Positions 1,227-23,847 of a stretch of DNA of 33,829 nucleotides are shown piece by piece. Under the pieces are notes generated by a model. That model had not been told where the DNA came from and ran no database searches. It worked only from the letters and a program-made list of their open reading frames with translations. The translations under genes and the position numbers were made by a program. Origin of the DNA: a virus; the IMG/VR virus record IMGVR_UViG_3300030047_000074, positions 1-33,829 of that record, one strand, 5' to 3'. Every line of letters begins with the position of its first letter. The stretch's first letter is position 1.

Positions 1227-3080
1227 TTAATTGGCTAATTCGGCACTACGTACAACACGCATGAACATTTCAGTCATCCAACGTTCTAACTCATCCTTAT
1301 TCATTCCATTTATAGATTGACTTTGAGGGCTAAACTTATCTATGAAAGAACCAATAGTAATCGTTATATTTTTGGTTTGACTTCCTTTGGCAATTGTGTT
1401 TACATCAGCACCGGCATTATTATCTTTTACTCCCGCACCTGTAGTTTTTCCTTCTTTATTGTCGGGAATTCCGTTGGCATTAGCATCAGTAACCCCATCC
1501 TGTTGGTTTTTTCTGTCAGTATAGGCTTTTGCATTAGCTGCATCTTCGACTTTAAGTTTTTTGCGGATTTCGTCGATAGACATGTTTTTAATGCCTTCAA
1601 CACCACCTTTTATTTTACTTAAATCTAATGTGGCAATACCTCTCATCACAGTGAGAATACCGCTTAGAAACTCTCTAATCCACTCTAAATACGGCCTGAT
1701 TCGGGTGTACATACCTGTAAAACCGCCACTCATACCCGGGAGAAGAGATATAACCCAATTGACTGCATTACCGGCCATTTTTAACCAGCCCCAAAGGACT
1801 TGTAAGGGCAAACAAGCATTATCGAATGCAAACTTAGCGACATCGCCAATGAATGATAGAATATCGCGAAAAGCGCCCGATTGATTGTATAGGTCTCTAA
1901 AATAGTTGATGGTGTCAATTATTCCCTGACCAATAGCGGTGATTGTTGGTAATGCTTTCATCCCTATCTCAATCATTGAGCCTTTTATCAGGTTTTGTAC
2001 CAAATGAAAATTGTCAAGCGGAGTCATTGAATTTTTATAGGCCTCATTCAACTGTCCTTGACTGTTAGTAGTAAAGTCTATTATTTCTTTGAACTTCTTT
2101 GCGTCTTGAGTTGCTGATGCAAAGAATGAAGCAGCTTCCATATCCATACCAATCTTACCAAAGAAGTTAGCGCGTGATAAATCACTCATACTTTTTGTTT
2201 TTGCTGTAAGTTGGTCAATGATATTGGTCAACGGTTTAATCTTACCTTGAGAATCATAGATAGCAATTCCTAATTGTTTGAAAGCCTTTATCCGTTGCGG
2301 ATTTGCAAGGGCTTTGAACGCATTTTCAGACAACGTGGTTGCACGCTCTGAATTCATACCTTGAGCGGTAAGATAAGCCCATGCACCAGCCGTTTCACCA
2401 AGTGCTAATCCTGCATTACGGGCTATAGGTATAAGTTTAGGAAGATATTGGGATATATCCTGAAATTCGGCATTCCCTTTGTTTACAGTTGCAAAAAGGA
2501 CATCGTATACATAATTTATGTCGCGCCCGGATGCGTTCATAACACCAACTGCAGCTTTTGCCGTATCTCCTACATCGGTAAATCCGGCTTTTGCGGCTCT
2601 CAATGTAGGCTCTAACACCTTCAAAGATGTATTCACATCCAATCCGGCTGAGATAATCTTATTGAACGCATCCGGTATTTGCTCAATGGGTGCTACATTT
2701 CGCTCTCCAATCATCAACAACTTGTCGGATAGTTTTCCAAGTTCCTGCTGCGAAAGTTGTGCTGTGACATTGATTTTTGCTAATCCTTTTTGCCAATCTA
2801 ATGCCATATCGACACACTGATAATAAGCCATTCCAAGGCCTATTACTGCCGCTGCTATGGCCACATAAGGATTTGTCAGCATACTCAAAGCTCTACCCAC
2901 GCCAGGCACTTCACTTTTGATAGCATCAAACATTTGGATATTGCTTGATTTTAGAGATGATAATTTATTCTGCATCCCTCCACAGGCTTTGTCAACCTGT
3001 TTTTTTGCTCGGTCTAATCCTGCCGAAAGATTGTTCTTTAGGTCGATAAGTAGCTGTAATTTTGCTATTCCGCTGGGCAT
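1227..3080 (-). CDS. Tail tape measure protein (TP901-like core)
   Basis: A 617-residue protein with an N-terminal helical segment, hydrophobic stretches near residues 65-85 and 410-450, and a TP901-type tape-measure core at about 100-330 (LSDKLLMIGERNVAPIEQIP, AAKAGFTDVGDTAKA, GAWAYLTAQGMNSERATTLS). It sets tail length and is ejected with the DNA. By the usual ratio of about 0.15 nm per residue it suggests a tail near 90 nm. The C-terminal part holds DANANGIPDNKEG, an Asp/Asn-rich calcium-loop-like motif. It sits with the head genes on the minus strand, away from the sheath and tube genes on the plus strand, which is unusual. Confidence 0.88.
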   Translation of the reverse strand: MPSGIAKLQLLIDLKNNLSAGLDRAKKQVDKACGGMQNKLSSLKSSNIQMFDAIKSEVPGVGRALSMLTNPYVAIAAAVIGLGMAYYQCVDMALDWQKGLAKINVTAQLSQQELGKLSDKLLMIGERNVAPIEQIPDAFNKIISAGLDVNTSLKVLEPTLRAAKAGFTDVGDTAKAAVGVMNASGRDINYVYDVLFATVNKGNAEFQDISQYLPKLIPIARNAGLALGETAGAWAYLTAQGMNSERATTLSENAFKALANPQRIKAFKQLGIAIYDSQGKIKPLTNIIDQLTAKTKSMSDLSRANFFGKIGMDMEAASFFASATQDAKKFKEIIDFTTNSQGQLNEAYKNSMTPLDNFHLVQNLIKGSMIEIGMKALPTITAIGQGIIDTINYFRDLYNQSGAFRDILSFIGDVAKFAFDNACLPLQVLWGWLKMAGNAVNWVISLLPGMSGGFTGMYTRIRPYLEWIREFLSGILTVMRGIATLDLSKIKGGVEGIKNMSIDEIRKKLKVEDAANAKAYTDRKNQQDGVTDANANGIPDNKEGKTTGAGVKDNNAGADVNTIAKGSQTKNITITIGSFIDKFSPQSQSINGMNKDELERWMTEMFMRVVRSAELAN

Positions 3081-3085
3081 GTGTA

Positions 3086-3221
3086 TAATTTTGAAAAAAT
3101 GGTTGTATATTTGTGTCGTAAAAAACGATTGAGAGTTGGAGTGGAGGTTAATGCATAAGCAACCACTGCAAGTTGAACGGTATCCTTTACAGGTCTTTGT
3201 TCACGCTCTTAATCGTTTTTT
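3086..3221 (+). ncRNA. Possible small RNA or long-loop terminator between portal and tape measure genes
   Basis: The gap between two minus-strand genes holds a 16-bp inverted repeat (3120-3135 and 3206-3221) around a loop of 70 nt. One position is G-T in the plus orientation but A-C in the minus orientation, so only plus-strand RNA would form an unbroken stem, and that stem ends in a T-run. A possible plus promoter lies just upstream (TTG at 3062-3064, 21 bp, TAATTTTG at 3086-3093). The alternative is a minus-strand terminator after the portal gene, whose stop overlaps the stem. Confidence 0.3.
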
Positions 3222-5739
3222 ATTTTATAAGCAATCCGCTTCTTATAGCCTCCTCTTTATCCTTCATGTTGTACCAAGTGGTAATTTCAAGTCCATCATT
3301 GGTAATTTCGGTATCAATAATGACTACCGTATCGCTATAAAACTTCACATATCGCAATTGTTCTTTGCCTGTTTTATAATTCCTGGCATATAGTTCATCG
3401 GGATTTGTAAGTATATCGGCTATATGAGCAAATAATTTAGGTCTATTTTCCTCAGGAGTAACATATTTATCAGCAAGATGATTTATAAATGTCTTTTCCT
3501 TTAATATCAATTTTCGTTTCAGATAGTCATCAAACCCCATTGCATTGTAGTTAGTTGTTTTTGCATTGTTTACAAATAACTCTTTCACATTGGTTGGCGT
3601 AATACTATTATCAAGTTTCAACGGTTTAAGCGTTCCGCTAAAGTCATTCCAAGGCATCAGACCATAATCTTTGAACGTATAATTATTTAGTTGCTTCTCT
3701 TTTTTATCCAACTGATTGAGATACATTTGATTTTGAGTGAATACTACACCTGCATCAGCGCGATTAACGCCAAAGGCCTGTTTTTCTTTATCGGTGGTAA
3801 ATACTTGATTGATATAGTCTTTACCAGATACTAATTTTTTGCCGGGATTACCAGGGAACTGCAAGCCCTCGCACCGACATTTGTATCCGTTTGGAGGCCA
3901 CAGGTTTCTACCCTCATTATCATCAAAAGAGAATACGCGACCATTCAATAAACGATGCGCATCGCGCACATGGTCATCACCCACGGTTTGATATATCCAG
4001 TTGCTTATCTGGTTCTTTTCGCCCATGAACTCAAACCATCGTGCGGATGTCTGTCCGGTTGCAATAGTAAAATCACGTTCAGTTGATAAATAAGTCTGAT
4101 TGAAATCCTTGTTTATCTTCAATGCTTCATTAATAAAGTCATGTTCGGATCGAATTTCCAATTTATCTTTGTCAACGAGCATCCTATTTAACAACATCAC
4201 TTCGGCTTTGCTTTTGGCCTCAGAAAAATGAAATAGATTCAGTTCCATCATAGCCAATGCACGATTATCCGGCGCATTCCATGCTGCTTCTACACGACTT
4301 TTACCCCACCCACCAAACAGACCTGTGCGAAGTTCTTCGCCTTGTCTTTTTGCCTTTAATAGTCTTACTTTGTCGGCATTGTCTGCGTCGCCTTTCCAAA
4401 GAAAATTCGTTATTTGCTCATCGAAAGCCGACAGCTCATCCAATAAATCTTTGTCGATACCGGCGGCTACCGGATAATGCATAACCTGGTAGTCGGGCAA
4501 AGTGATTGCACAAGCCACCGCCATTGCCCGCACGTCGGTGGCTTTCTTAAAATTTGCCGGAGGTGGCGTTGCTTTTTTGCCTATAATGGGAATGCGGAAT
4601 GTTTTTGACACCCACTCTTGGTCAATGTCATATATCGTTGCCGCTTCTTTTACTATACCCCAATGGTCTTTAATTGTGAGTTCTTCTGTCCAGTCAAACT
4701 CAAAGGTCATTGTAGTATTGTCGAATGGAAAACCTAAACTTTGCAGTACCGGGAACAATTGGTCATTGACAACAAATTGAGAGAATCGTTTATCTTTTAC
4801 AGAAATCTTTTCATCTAACGTGCGCTCATGCACTTCAGTTTGACTTCTGTTAGCCCCGGTATTGACCAGTGTAGTTGAACCAACAAATCGGATGCCTATT
4901 TGTTCGTCATGCTTATTGACTTGCTTCAAATAGCACTTTTCGGGGTCGCCTGCATTTGCAAGGTCGTGCACCATTATCTCTGTGCCTTTCGGCAACACCG
5001 CCTGAGCTGCTTCACCCAGCTCTTTCAACTGGTTTTGAATGCGGGTAATGTCTTGCTTGTTGGCGGTGGTAGCTGTGATAAGCGGTTGTCCATACTTTTC
5101 GCTGAATTCGGCATACGATTGCAGGCAATTCCGCTTCCATATTACATTGGGCACTACTTCGCAAATAATGCCAAATGGAGAGTTATAATTGATTTCTACG
5201 ACAGTAGGATCGCTACGATAGTCAATGAATTTATTGCCGCCAACTTCGGTGTACATATAACCCTTTTGGATGCAGATGTTACGCCGTGGAATAACCGATA
5301 GTATCGGCCTGTCTACACCCCTAAGAACTTGTATCACTGAATACTTTCGATAGATGGCTTTTTGTATTTCTTCTAAGAAGTCATAAAACCATTTTCCATT
5401 CAAAAACTCTGTTTGTTCCGGGAGTTCTTCACCGCTTTTTTTGTCTTTTACATAGAAGCGATGGTTGAGCGTAGCGGCATCTCGAATTTCACTGACAGAA
5501 ATAATTTCAGCGTCCAATAGAATATCATCGTACAAGTCCTGAAGTAAATACCAACGTGGATCGTCCGGATTTTCGGCGGCTAAAATTGCACTACGCCACT
5601 TTTTAATGTCCTTACGGCTACGGTCAGTAAATTCCTGCGCAATTTGTATTGCAATGCCACTATTAAACTCTGCTTTATCAGGATTTTTTGGGGTAGTCAG
5701 TGCTACCGGTGATTTTCTAAATATGTCTTCAAATGCCAT
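3220..5739 (-). CDS. Portal (DUF935) - MuF - C-terminal nuclease-like fusion
   Basis: An 839-residue protein made of three parts. Residues about 1-460 resemble the Mu gp29-like portal family (DUF935), the ring through which DNA enters the head. Residues about 555-630 are a MuF-type minor head domain: DDHVRDAHRLLNGRVFSFDD followed by PPNGYKCRC. Residues about 695-839 look like the phage Barnase-EndoU-ColicinE5/D-RelE-like nuclease (PBECR) domains found at MuF C-termini (KLFAHIADILTNPDELY, YVKFYSDTVVIID, ITTWYNMKDKEEA). Portal and MuF are separate genes in Mu. It lies downstream of the gp36-like gene and before the tape measure. The portal and MuF calls are firm; the toxin-like tail is inferred from pattern. 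Confidence 0.85.
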   Translation of the reverse strand: MAFEDIFRKSPVALTTPKNPDKAEFNSGIAIQIAQEFTDRSRKDIKKWRSAILAAENPDDPRWYLLQDLYDDILLDAEIISVSEIRDAATLNHRFYVKDKKSGEELPEQTEFLNGKWFYDFLEEIQKAIYRKYSVIQVLRGVDRPILSVIPRRNICIQKGYMYTEVGGNKFIDYRSDPTVVEINYNSPFGIICEVVPNVIWKRNCLQSYAEFSEKYGQPLITATTANKQDITRIQNQLKELGEAAQAVLPKGTEIMVHDLANAGDPEKCYLKQVNKHDEQIGIRFVGSTTLVNTGANRSQTEVHERTLDEKISVKDKRFSQFVVNDQLFPVLQSLGFPFDNTTMTFEFDWTEELTIKDHWGIVKEAATIYDIDQEWVSKTFRIPIIGKKATPPPANFKKATDVRAMAVACAITLPDYQVMHYPVAAGIDKDLLDELSAFDEQITNFLWKGDADNADKVRLLKAKRQGEELRTGLFGGWGKSRVEAAWNAPDNRALAMMELNLFHFSEAKSKAEVMLLNRMLVDKDKLEIRSEHDFINEALKINKDFNQTYLSTERDFTIATGQTSARWFEFMGEKNQISNWIYQTVGDDHVRDAHRLLNGRVFSFDDNEGRNLWPPNGYKCRCEGLQFPGNPGKKLVSGKDYINQVFTTDKEKQAFGVNRADAGVVFTQNQMYLNQLDKKEKQLNNYTFKDYGLMPWNDFSGTLKPLKLDNSITPTNVKELFVNNAKTTNYNAMGFDDYLKRKLILKEKTFINHLADKYVTPEENRPKLFAHIADILTNPDELYARNYKTGKEQLRYVKFYSDTVVIIDTEITNDGLEITTWYNMKDKEEAIRSGLLIK

Positions 5740-5780: not shown

Positions 5781-6233
5781 TTACCATTTATGATTGTTTG
5801 GTGCATTTCCGCTCCAAATGCGCACGTCTGAGTATTCCTCTTCCGTATCGGGGTCGATAATAGCCGGAAGGTCGCATGGATTGGTACCGGTACCCACATC
5901 TTTGAGCCAGTCTATTGCATCCTGATAGCGTTGTGAGCGGTGTTCCGGCACATCTTTGCTGCCTGTTTGCGAGTATAGATGATACAGTGTGATGTCGATG
6001 GTGATGGTAACTATCCACTGGTCGCGGGTATCTTCGGCACCTCCGGTTGTGCCTGCAAATATTTGAGCACAGTCGTATCGTTTACCAATGCGATTCTTTA
6101 TTTGTGCAATGGCTGTGTTTTCGGCTCTTACTAATTTTGCACTGGTAAAGAAGTCGGTAGGGGTAGTAAGCAGGCGCAAAATTTCGGTACGTACCTGCAT
6201 TGCATAGTCTGATTGTTGTAAAAAACGTGCCAT
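5781..6233 (-). CDS. Mu gp36-like protein (DUF1320)
   Basis: A 150-residue protein that resembles the DUF1320 / Mu gp36 family, a head-tail connector component. The N-terminus MARFLQQSDYAMQVRTEILR and the helical ENTAIAQIKNRIGKRYD fit the family pattern, followed by ITIDITLYHLYSQ. The length matches the family (about 140-150). It shares its start region with the end of the large terminase (6233), suggesting coupled translation. In Mu, gp36 lies after the capsid gene; here it lies between terminase and portal. Confidence 0.7.
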   Translation of the reverse strand: MARFLQQSDYAMQVRTEILRLLTTPTDFFTSAKLVRAENTAIAQIKNRIGKRYDCAQIFAGTTGGAEDTRDQWIVTITIDITLYHLYSQTGSKDVPEHRSQRYQDAIDWLKDVGTGTNPCDLPAIIDPDTEEEYSDVRIWSGNAPNNHKW

Positions 6234-7792
6234 TAAAAATATCGTTTACGGGTTTCGGAACGTGACGTTGTTTGTATTTCAAAACTTTCCACAAATGTGG
6301 TTTTGTTGAGTTCGGCAACAGCCGACTGGAGCGCATCCGGGCCGTCATCGTTTGCGCCGCTACCTTTCTCGAAGGCTAATAGTTGGTCGGTCAGATTAAT
6401 CTGTCCGGCATATTCTTTTTCGTCTTCGTTAAACCATACGTTTAACCGCTCGAAATGTCCGGCCATGCTTTCGATGCGGTCATATTTATTTATCTTGCTT
6501 TGCTTGTCGGCTACAACCGGAATGTAGTAACCTCGGTTGTCGCCTTCGGTGTCAAAGTCATTTACAAACTCATCCTGAGCGAATAGACCTTCCATCATAA
6601 AAGAGATATTGAACCTGTCGAGGCATCGTTTTTCCCAAAGGTCATACAACCAACCAGCACAAATAGAACGTGATGTTTGTTTTACAAACGAATGTATTAC
6701 ATGAAACTCCCTGCCTGCTTTACCCACCAAAACAAGGGCTTTGTAGTCGCCTTTATCCTTGTATGATAAGTCACCGTACAGTACTAAAGCATCATATTTT
6801 GAGAGCGGAAGCATCTTTTTATATTGCAACCACTCAGGGTTGAATATCGCCCCATCCACCAATGGTGTACACATGTACTCTCGCATCCATGAGCGGTAAG
6901 GTGTTGAAGCTCGTTTCTCACGCCAATAGTCGGCGGTATATTTTGCAGGCCATGAAGGCGTATATTTATCGTCCAGAACGGCTTTTACTTTGAAATGATA
7001 GAATGTTTTCTTTAATCCCTGTTCTTTGGTTGCTTTATTGGCCATAACTGACAGTTCAATCAGTTTTGCCATCAAAGAGTTTTTGTGAATAAGGTTATTA
7101 CAGAAAACAAAGCGTTCATGTCCTTTATCGAAACAACCCCAAAGCGTACCGGTGATATAGTCCATACCTTCCCGTATCAGCCTGTCGTTATTACATCGTT
7201 TCAACGTGTCAATATCATCACATACGATATAGTCGGGGCGGTGTTCGCCGTTACGAAGGCCGCGCGGGTCTTGACCAAATCCGAGAGACCGGAAGTAAAC
7301 ACCGTCTTTTGTGGTGAAATTACCTTCAGCCCAGTCACCTGTTTTGAATTGTTCGCCGTAATCGTTTATTAAACGGGTATTAAATTTCAAATTGGCTTGT
7401 ATATCCGAAAGCAAACGGATAGATTTTTCTTCGTTTTCTCCAATCAGCAACATAAACCATATCTGCCGTTTAACGAGTGCCAAATACAAAGGGATTCCAA
7501 GCGTTGCATGTACTGATTTTGCTGAACCTCTAAACATATCCAACAACGCTTTGATAATTTCATTGTTTATGATTTTGTTGGATATATCTACATGAAAATC
7601 GGCACAATCACTTGTAGCATATTCCGGGAATTCATATGCAAACCATTCTTTGTATGAATTTTCATATCGTTTCAGGCGACTATGCTTTTCTTCGAGGCTT
7701 TCAACTGTTGCCAGATACGCTTTTTTTTGAATGCGATGACAGTTTAGCTCGTATTCGCGTAATATTTTATCGTAATTAATTACCGCCATCAA
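6233..7792 (-). CDS. Terminase large subunit (Mu gp28-like)
   Basis: A 519-residue DNA-packaging motor. The ATPase half carries a Walker-A-like loop RGSAKS (about residues 88-93) and a Walker B YIVCDDID (about 189-196). The nuclease half begins near residue 325 with an acidic motif in LVLYGDLSYKDKGDY, and ends with DGPDALQSAV near 484-493, the usual C-terminal catalytic acid of the RNaseH-like fold. It overlaps the small subunit gene by 17 bp. In Mu-type phages packaging is headful from integrated copies and includes flanking host DNA. Confidence 0.9.
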   Translation of the reverse strand: MMAVINYDKILREYELNCHRIQKKAYLATVESLEEKHSRLKRYENSYKEWFAYEFPEYATSDCADFHVDISNKIINNEIIKALLDMFRGSAKSVHATLGIPLYLALVKRQIWFMLLIGENEEKSIRLLSDIQANLKFNTRLINDYGEQFKTGDWAEGNFTTKDGVYFRSLGFGQDPRGLRNGEHRPDYIVCDDIDTLKRCNNDRLIREGMDYITGTLWGCFDKGHERFVFCNNLIHKNSLMAKLIELSVMANKATKEQGLKKTFYHFKVKAVLDDKYTPSWPAKYTADYWREKRASTPYRSWMREYMCTPLVDGAIFNPEWLQYKKMLPLSKYDALVLYGDLSYKDKGDYKALVLVGKAGREFHVIHSFVKQTSRSICAGWLYDLWEKRCLDRFNISFMMEGLFAQDEFVNDFDTEGDNRGYYIPVVADKQSKINKYDRIESMAGHFERLNVWFNEDEKEYAGQINLTDQLLAFEKGSGANDDGPDALQSAVAELNKTTFVESFEIQTTSRSETRKRYF

Positions 7793-8435: not shown

Positions 8436-8509
<74 letters not shown>

Positions 8510-8528
8510 CACAGAATTTTCATAGGAT

Positions 8529-9689
8529 ATGTTTGTACGCGAGATTGACAAAAAAACAGTAGAAGTAAAGTTGTACGGTGATATTGGAGGTTGGTTTGCC
8601 GACGGCGAAACAATCACCAATTTGCTGGACAACTTTGAGGCTTCAGGTTATGAGAATGTAATCATACGAATACATTGCTATGGCGGGAGTGTTTTTGAGG
8701 GTAATGTGATTTACAACGCGGTACTAAGGTCTCCGCTAAACATTAAGGCTATTATTGACGGTGTAGCCGCCTCAATGGGTTGTTTTATTCTCCCGGCTTT
8801 TTCTGTTGTCGAAATCGCCGACAATGGTTTTGGTATGTTGCATCGCCCTGAGTGGCGAACCGGTGGCAATGCGGATGATTTGACGGCAGCGGCAAAATTG
8901 CTCACTGATATGGAGCAAATATGTATAAAGAGAATTTCGGAATGCTCAGGAATAGCCGAGGATGAAGTAAAGGCAAAATGGTTGGATGGTACTGACCACT
9001 GGTTGAATGCAAAAGAGATGGTGGAATTTGGGCTTGCTACTGAAGTGATACCGGCAACGGCAAAGAACATGAAAGAACTGGATAGTTCGATGGTTCTCGA
9101 TTTAGGCGTAGAAGGTGTTTATAATCAATATGTCGCCTTATTGGGCGATACAAAAGACAAACCAATAATTAAAAATGAGATGGACAAAAAAGAATTAATT
9201 CAGGCCTTAGGTCTTGAAGGGGTTACTGAAGAAAGCCCCGATTCGCTGGTGCTTGCAAAAGCAAAAGAAAAACAAGAAGCGCTTGCCGCACAGGCTGCGC
9301 AGGCGAAAGCCTCTGCCGATGCTGTTGTCGCTTTGGCAAAAGCGGAACTCAACGCTGCTATCAAAGCACGCCTTGATGCTGCTGTTGCTGCCAATAAACT
9401 GATTCCACCTGCAGGGAAAACCATTGACCAGGTGCGCGCGTCGTATGAAAAAATCGGACAAAATGCCGGTTTGGATGTGCTTGATTTGGCTTTAGCCGGA
9501 TTAGGTGTTAAAAAACCGATTGTAGATTATTTGCATCCTGAAGGGAAAGGCGGTTCGGATGCAGACCCGAAAACATGGGCTGACGTGATGGCTTTGGAAG
9601 GGGCTACACTGACTGCATTCCGCTCTGAAAATCATGAAGCGTATGCAAAACTGTATAAGGCCGAATTTGGACACGAACCTATTAAATAA
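8529..9689 (+). CDS. Head maturation protease (ClpP-like) fused to scaffold
   Basis: A 386-residue protein. Residues 1-200 are a ClpP/SppA-fold prohead protease: GGSVFEG near 52-58, the nucleophile in DGVAASMGCF (Ser about 82) and the His in GFGMLHRPEW (about 105). Residues about 215-300 form an Ala/Lys/Glu-rich coiled coil typical of scaffolds. The C-terminus (about 330-386) may bind capsid. It directly precedes the major capsid gene. Scaffold and protease are one chain here, so the protease may remove the scaffold during maturation. An internal ATG at 9181 could give scaffold alone. Confidence 0.85.
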   Translation: MFVREIDKKTVEVKLYGDIGGWFADGETITNLLDNFEASGYENVIIRIHCYGGSVFEGNVIYNAVLRSPLNIKAIIDGVAASMGCFILPAFSVVEIADNGFGMLHRPEWRTGGNADDLTAAAKLLTDMEQICIKRISECSGIAEDEVKAKWLDGTDHWLNAKEMVEFGLATEVIPATAKNMKELDSSMVLDLGVEGVYNQYVALLGDTKDKPIIKNEMDKKELIQALGLEGVTEESPDSLVLAKAKEKQEALAAQAAQAKASADAVVALAKAELNAAIKARLDAAVAANKLIPPAGKTIDQVRASYEKIGQNAGLDVLDLALAGLGVKKPIVDYLHPEGKGGSDADPKTWADVMALEGATLTAFRSENHEAYAKLYKAEFGHEPIK

Positions 9690-23113: not shown

Positions 23114-23320
23114 TTAGGGTATCATTTTTTTTGCATCTTCCCAATCTGGAAGCAATTCACTGAGGAAATCAATTGTTGCATACAAATCATCCTGAATGTT
23201 ATCATTCTTCACATTTCTAATTAGATTGTGAAGTGATTGTTGTAGCATTAACCAATTTTCGATTGGTGAGGTGCATGTTTCCACCTCGATAATGAAGCTG
23301 TGAGATGTGAACGTAATCAT
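23114..23320 (-). CDS. Hypothetical small acidic protein
   Basis: A 68-residue protein (MITFTSHSFIIEVETCTSPI then NWLMLQQSLHNLIRNVKNDN), acidic and without signal or membrane segment. It starts 4 bp inside the end of the antirepressor gene, so the two form a coupled pair. It could be a partner or modulator of the antirepressor. No motif recognised. Confidence 0.55.
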   Translation of the reverse strand: MITFTSHSFIIEVETCTSPIENWLMLQQSLHNLIRNVKNDNIQDDLYATIDFLSELLPDWEDAKKMIP

Positions 23321-23847
23321 ATATTATTTCCTCCCATCAGTTTATTGGTGATGCTCATTCGTAGTTCTTTGTCGTCAATGCGGCATACATCAGCCAATAT
23401 GCTAACCATTCGGTCTTGAGTGAGCCGATTATGATTGCGCCTCGGCGGCAACTGGCGGCTGTTAATAGCCGTACCAAACAAATCTCTTTGTTCGTTCACT
23501 TTCAGGATTAAATCTTCAGCCCAATCACGAAACAATTTTGCCCGTTCACTTTTGATAAAGAACCCGAGGCGAACAATACCACGCTTCGTAAAAAACATCT
23601 TGTTATGTGGCGTTTTATGAACGCTGTCCAAAGTTTGGACACCACATACGAAGTGTTTGCCAAGCGTAAATTCACTTGTGTGATTTGAAATGTGTGAGCG
23701 TAAGCAACTCGCCGAAATACCATAGCCATACGCCACTTGTCTTGTTTCCATGAGGAACTCATGTTCTGAACTTGGGATAATTTTCACATCAATACCCTCA
23801 ATGGCATTGATAAGCAGTAAGTTGCAAGCTTCATTCTTTGTTGTCAT
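23317..23847 (-). CDS. BRO/AntA-type phage antirepressor
   Basis: A 176-residue protein resembling BRO-N/AntA antirepressors: EFLMETRQVAYGYGISASCL (about 29-48), a winged DNA-binding motif with a TLGKHF turn, and KMFFTKRGIVRLGFFIKSER followed by AKLFRDWAEDLIL (about 83-114), the family hallmark. Such proteins bind phage repressor or DNA and trigger induction. It has its own promoter (24026-24056) and a leader of about 170 nt with competing pairings that include the start codon, so translation is probably regulated. The C-terminal half is basic and specific. Confidence 0.75.
   Translation of the reverse strand: MTTKNEACNLLLINAIEGIDVKIIPSSEHEFLMETRQVAYGYGISASCLRSHISNHTSEFTLGKHFVCGVQTLDSVHKTPHNKMFFTKRGIVRLGFFIKSERAKLFRDWAEDLILKVNEQRDLFGTAINSRQLPPRRNHNRLTQDRMVSILADVCRIDDKELRMSITNKLMGGNNI

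Follow-up and report, generated by a model that had tools for sequence, protein, structure and literature searches.

Iyer et al., 2017 (PMC5512222) give fusions with MuF and portal domains as the simplest PBECR architectures and predict packaging and injection. In phage Mu the homologous domains are encoded by two genes, gp29 (portal) and gp30 (MuF). The latter ends in a MuF_C/PBECR-type domain, which is called inactive by Iyer et al. and which scored 21 bits here, below the MuF_C cut-off. The Mu portal is a 12-mer; in the virion structure gp29 lacks its last 124 residues, a loss that the authors put down to cutting by protease I (PMC11915804). MuF polymorphic toxins (Jamet 2017, PMC5576092; Bxa, PMC11699363) are encoded in the head module of temperate phages and likewise combine MuF with an enzymatic C-terminal domain that varies. 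In these systems MuF has a gene of its own, located downstream of the portal gene, with immunity genes nearby; at the locus described here MuF belongs to the portal chain, which no immunity gene adjoins.

The DNA analysed (the window) is IMG/VR virus record IMGVR_UViG_3300030047_000074 (33,829 bases). Its gene set, which includes a transposase-type rve protein, an AAA protein, DUF3164, terminase, a gp36-like adaptor, a Clp-type head protease, major head protein, sheath and tape measure, is that of a Mu-like transposable phage. The phage is one of Bacteroidota. Within the head-packaging operon lies a gene of 839 codons with no internal stop that encodes portal, MuF and PBECR2 domains in one chain. 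The features discussed below are as follows.

1227..3080, minus strand: tape-measure protein, the next gene downstream of the chain (Pfam and gene order in relatives).
3117..3225, plus strand: conserved structured RNA element of ~110 nt between the chain gene and the tape-measure gene (covariation, covariance model).
3220..5739, minus strand: portal-MuF-PBECR2 chain, 839 amino acids (ORF, Pfam, relatives with the same chain).
4591..5541, minus strand: Portal_Mu PF06074, residues 67-383 (Pfam E 2.7e-50).
4300..4572, minus strand: variable portal-MuF seam at about residues 390-480, a candidate head-protease cleavage site (relatives; Flavobacterium phage fF4 is divided here).
3868..4065, minus strand: Phage_Mu_F PF04233 minor-head motif, residues 559-624 (Pfam E 2.4e-11; TIGR01641).
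3235..3534, minus strand: PBECR2 PF18810, predicted RNase domain, residues 736-835 (Pfam E 1.8e-9; model; conservation).
3478..3480, minus strand: predicted catalytic His754 (22/23 relatives).
3277..3279, minus strand: predicted catalytic Thr821, Ser in two relatives (Thr/Ser in 23/23).
5781..6233, minus strand: Mu gp36-like head-tail adaptor (Pfam).
6233..7792, minus strand: terminase large subunit (PHROGs).
8529..9689, plus strand: Clp-type head maturation protease, a candidate for cutting at the portal-MuF seam (Pfam, PHROGs).

A tRNA gene with a CAT anticodon (8436-8510, plus strand) lies where the terminase and protease genes diverge. It has initiator-like features, starting with CGCGG and having a G/C-rich anticodon stem and no encoded CCA, and it was also found in loci L001, L005 and L006. 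PADLOC gave no defence-system match for the chain; weak PDC-S05 and PDC-S23 matches were obtained for a Bro-N-like protein (below cut-off) at 23317-23847 on the minus strand.

The sequence-only reading had placed a portal (residues 1-460), a MuF motif (590-625) and a PBECR-like domain (695-839) in one chain. All three were found above their Pfam cut-offs, with profile boundaries near those proposed. Portal_Mu, formerly DUF935, scored 172.1 bits against a gathering score of 23.9 and was covered over its whole profile (1-336 of 336); the match was extended to residue 455 by PHROGs, and the domain also matched the 512-residue portal protein of PDB entries 9khx/9knu (E 5.7e-8). Phage_Mu_F scored 44.8 bits against 29.6 (profile 48-110 of 112), and the SPP1 gp7-like family TIGR01641 of NCBIfam was matched at residues 574-624. 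The profile search of the C-terminal region gave PBECR2 at 38.3 bits against a gathering score of 27.1 (41-48 bits in relatives), with PBECR3 below the cut-off.

The full-length AlphaFold model of the chain had a mean pLDDT of 38.9, which permits no statement on the placement of the parts on the portal. Residues 690-839 were modelled confidently, at a pLDDT of 88.6, as two helices followed by four strands; the predicted fold shows the BECR order, helix then four strands. His754 (model residue 65) is at the end of helix 59-64 and Thr821 (model residue 132) lies within strand 128-135. The best structural alignment with VIA-align was to CdiA-NC101 (Z 5.9, 85 aligned residues, r.m.s.d. 3.6), followed by BrnT (5.4), CdiA-Kp342 (4.3) and RelE (about 4), with HigB and YoeB also among the top matches; all of these Z values are below 8, the level at which they would be conclusive alone. 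These proteins are all BECR-type RNases, a class marked by metal-independent RNA cleavage. Foldseek comparison of the C-terminal model with the PDB and BFVD gave nothing at E<=0.001, the weak best BFVD matches including minor capsid and polyvalent/nuclease proteins, and a profile search of the domain against PDB sequences returned no match.

Conservation was assessed over 23 aligned C-terminal domains, the relatives being 40-66% identical to that of the window. His754 was kept in 22 of them and position 821 was Thr or Ser in every one; R766, P780, E782, Y797, W822, R833 and G835 were invariant. Active PBECR domains are defined by such a His and Thr/Ser pair in Iyer et al., 2017 (PMC5512222). 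The His was absent from L061 and from the fused protein of genome G278, and the PBECR domain of Mu gp30 is called inactive, which makes a purely structural, non-catalytic role conceivable. Where other Bacteroidota encode MuF-PBECR2 as a separate protein, most such proteins share the His but have Asn aligned with the Thr/Ser position, which makes this position the less certain of the two. Pairwise dN/dS of the PBECR region was 0.05-0.11 among close relatives, indicating purifying selection. A search of the literature gave no biochemical evidence on the window protein or on any PBECR2 domain. As a prediction, the nuclease-like C-terminus of the sequence-only reading holds up: the curated PBECR2 profile, the conserved His754 and Thr821 and a model with a BECR-like core agree with it, and the window domain is probably an active RNase. 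The outcome that would have overturned that reading, a C-terminus lacking both a BECR-like core and conservation at the catalytic positions, was looked for and did not appear.

A Paludibacter MAG encodes the chain, about 840 residues long, at 74% identity to that of the window, as do about 20 IMG/VR loci (37-100%), and an 823-residue version of the three domains is encoded on a human-gut phage contig. Wherever the contig of a fused ~840-residue relative continues, the tape-measure gene comes next. An assembly artefact was ruled out, as the same chain occurs in about 20 independent contigs. By these comparisons the fused chain is a conserved lineage. It is a minority lineage, since fused chains (840 and 817 residues) account for only two of 51 Portal_Mu places, located in 44 genomes of a sample of 395 Bacteroidota genomes; in most relatives portal and MuF are neighbouring separate genes.

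Among the closest known systems are also phages of Porphyromonas and Flavobacterium. In transposable phages of Porphyromonas gingivalis (e.g. phage007a_Bg4, PP754929) an 853-residue chain (about 26-31% identity) carries Portal_Mu, Phage_Mu_F and PBECR2 all above cut-off, and up to the portal the gene order is that of the window. They differ in that the chain is annotated only as 'portal' and that the next gene is not a tape measure. Flavobacterium phage fF4 (MN850656) has the order seen in the window, 39% identity over the whole chain and PBECR2 above cut-off, but its chain is divided into a 415-residue portal and a 425-residue MuF-PBECR2 gene. In a tree of the MuF-PBECR part fF4 nests inside the fused clade and is the only clean split case; L051 was not counted as a second one, as no portal is encoded ahead of its MuF gene. 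The frame changes in fF4 (L008 5170-5200) at a run of nine A between the two genes, which may reflect a true frame change, an error in sequencing, or transcriptional slippage that yields the portal as well as a longer portal-MuF product. Several ATG, GTG and TTG codons lie near the seam of the window chain, none of them convincing as a separate MuF start.

Further variation was observed among the relatives. Loci L020 and L042 share MuF-PBECR halves of 94-96% identity and portal halves of only 65%, which points to recombination at the seam of the fused gene. L024, L025 and L026 have a portal 57% identical to that of the window, but their MuF is a separate gene with a different tail that weakly matches CdiA_C, which amounts to a natural exchange of tails; in L026 the portal ORF is broken in two. 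MuF of related Bacteroidota phages carries PBECR2, Gln_amidase or CdiA_C-like C-terminal domains, the papain-fold Gln_amidase lying behind MuF in Bacteroides BKO1-TP4 (above cut-off) and the CdiA_C-like domain in L012, L013 and L024 (below cut-off).

The gap between chain and tape-measure gene in the fused relatives is about 75-330 bp and contains no conserved small ORF; an immunity ORF was found there in none of the fused relatives examined. The position is occupied in the window by the RNA element. Both-sided changes were seen in 11 of its 22 pairs, and 97% of cells pair, compared with 88% in shuffles, figures that lean towards structure because the alignment was fitted to the model; sliding destroyed the pairing. 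On the strand opposite to the genes the hairpin loops are of GNRA or UNCG type in several relatives (GAAA, GUAA, UACG, UUCG), and a TAnnTTTG-like motif precedes the element in most. To judge from these loops and the motif, transcription of the element probably uses the plus strand and so runs against that of the late genes. Convincing covariance-model matches were confined to this phage clade, behind the portal-MuF-PBECR2 gene, and Rfam gave no match; exact-pattern matches to the core hairpin in several unrelated viral contigs were judged to be due to chance. Two tandem copies occur in L018, and a second copy of the core hairpin motif, with three mismatches, is found at 23235-23253 (plus strand) of the window. 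Any link between the element and the RNase would be speculative. It seems very improbable that ~12 portal-borne RNase units per virion, passing through the DNA gate, are held in check in the producing cell by the opposite-strand RNA, as decoy or inhibitor, rather than by a protein.

With moderate confidence we explain the locus by a fused portal and MuF protein with a probably active PBECR2 RNase that would be built into the head, perhaps cut, and enter the cell with the DNA. The window portal would assemble as a 12-mer, placing up to 12 MuF-PBECR units in each procapsid with no separate targeting step and with the C-terminal side of the chain inside the head. As the Mu portal is dodecameric, about 12 copies of the domain, delivered with the virion, would be expected by analogy. 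The Clp-type head protease might then cut the variable seam, a candidate site suggested by the residues missing from Mu gp29 (PMC11915804), and release free MuF-RNase pieces. Since the head protease apparently removes the C-terminus of the Mu portal, the window domain may not remain at the gate. The pieces would exit with the DNA and cleave RNA of the host (or of the phage) in the cell just infected; such cleavage and injection of the MuF-PBECR2 part are proposed purely by analogy. The PBECR2 domain would then be an early effector in the cell entered and not a weapon of bacterium against bacterium.

Portal and MuF are neighbours in most relatives, fF4 is split at its A9 run within the fused clade, and the halves recombine, as between L020 and L042; a neutral joining of two neighbouring genes that has no functional consequence, the head protease separating the parts again, is accordingly plausible, although we hold it to be somewhat doubtful. 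Against it, the fused state persists across a clade whose most distant members share only about 37% identity and is thus at least stable. Neutral joining is compatible with the explanation favoured above, copy number excepted. The domain might instead be a structural or RNA-binding remnant serving head assembly or packaging, its catalysis irrelevant, as proposed for Mu gp30. The inactive gp30 domain (PMC5512222), the two relatives that lack the His and the attachment to the essential portal agree with such a role, which would call for no immunity gene; we nevertheless regard it as unlikely, because the His in 22 of 23 domains and the Thr/Ser in all have been kept while identity falls to 40%.

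It is more doubtful still that the protein is a MuF polymorphic toxin directed against competing bacteria and neutralized in the lysogen by an immunity factor. The exchange of tails behind MuF (Gln_amidase, CdiA_C-like) and the pairing of 57%-identical portals with a separate, differently tailed MuF gene speak for it. In characterised Bacteroidales MuF toxins, however, small immunity genes come next (PMC11699363), and none precedes the tape-measure gene in the fused relatives examined. For the word 'toxin' of the sequence-only reading, taken in the polymorphic-toxin sense, support is weaker than for its nuclease-like domain, because no immunity gene adjoins the chain. The pattern would fit an effector working in the infected cell, as in the favoured explanation, better than a classical toxin-immunity pair.

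The portal, MuF and PBECR domains of the window chain are also those of the fusions in Iyer et al., 2017 (PMC5512222), so the architecture is not unprecedented but is a better-documented case of a described arrangement. Added here are the conservation of the lineage, its rarity, the residue and fold evidence, the lack of an immunity gene next to the chain and an argument from cleavage about copy number. MuF-linked effectors have been proposed to travel in phage heads. An enzyme borne by the portal would fix the starting copy number (12 per head) and the exit vertex, and would make injection directly testable by mass spectrometry of virions, in a lineage that holds natural experiments in its split form, its His-less forms and its swapped tails.
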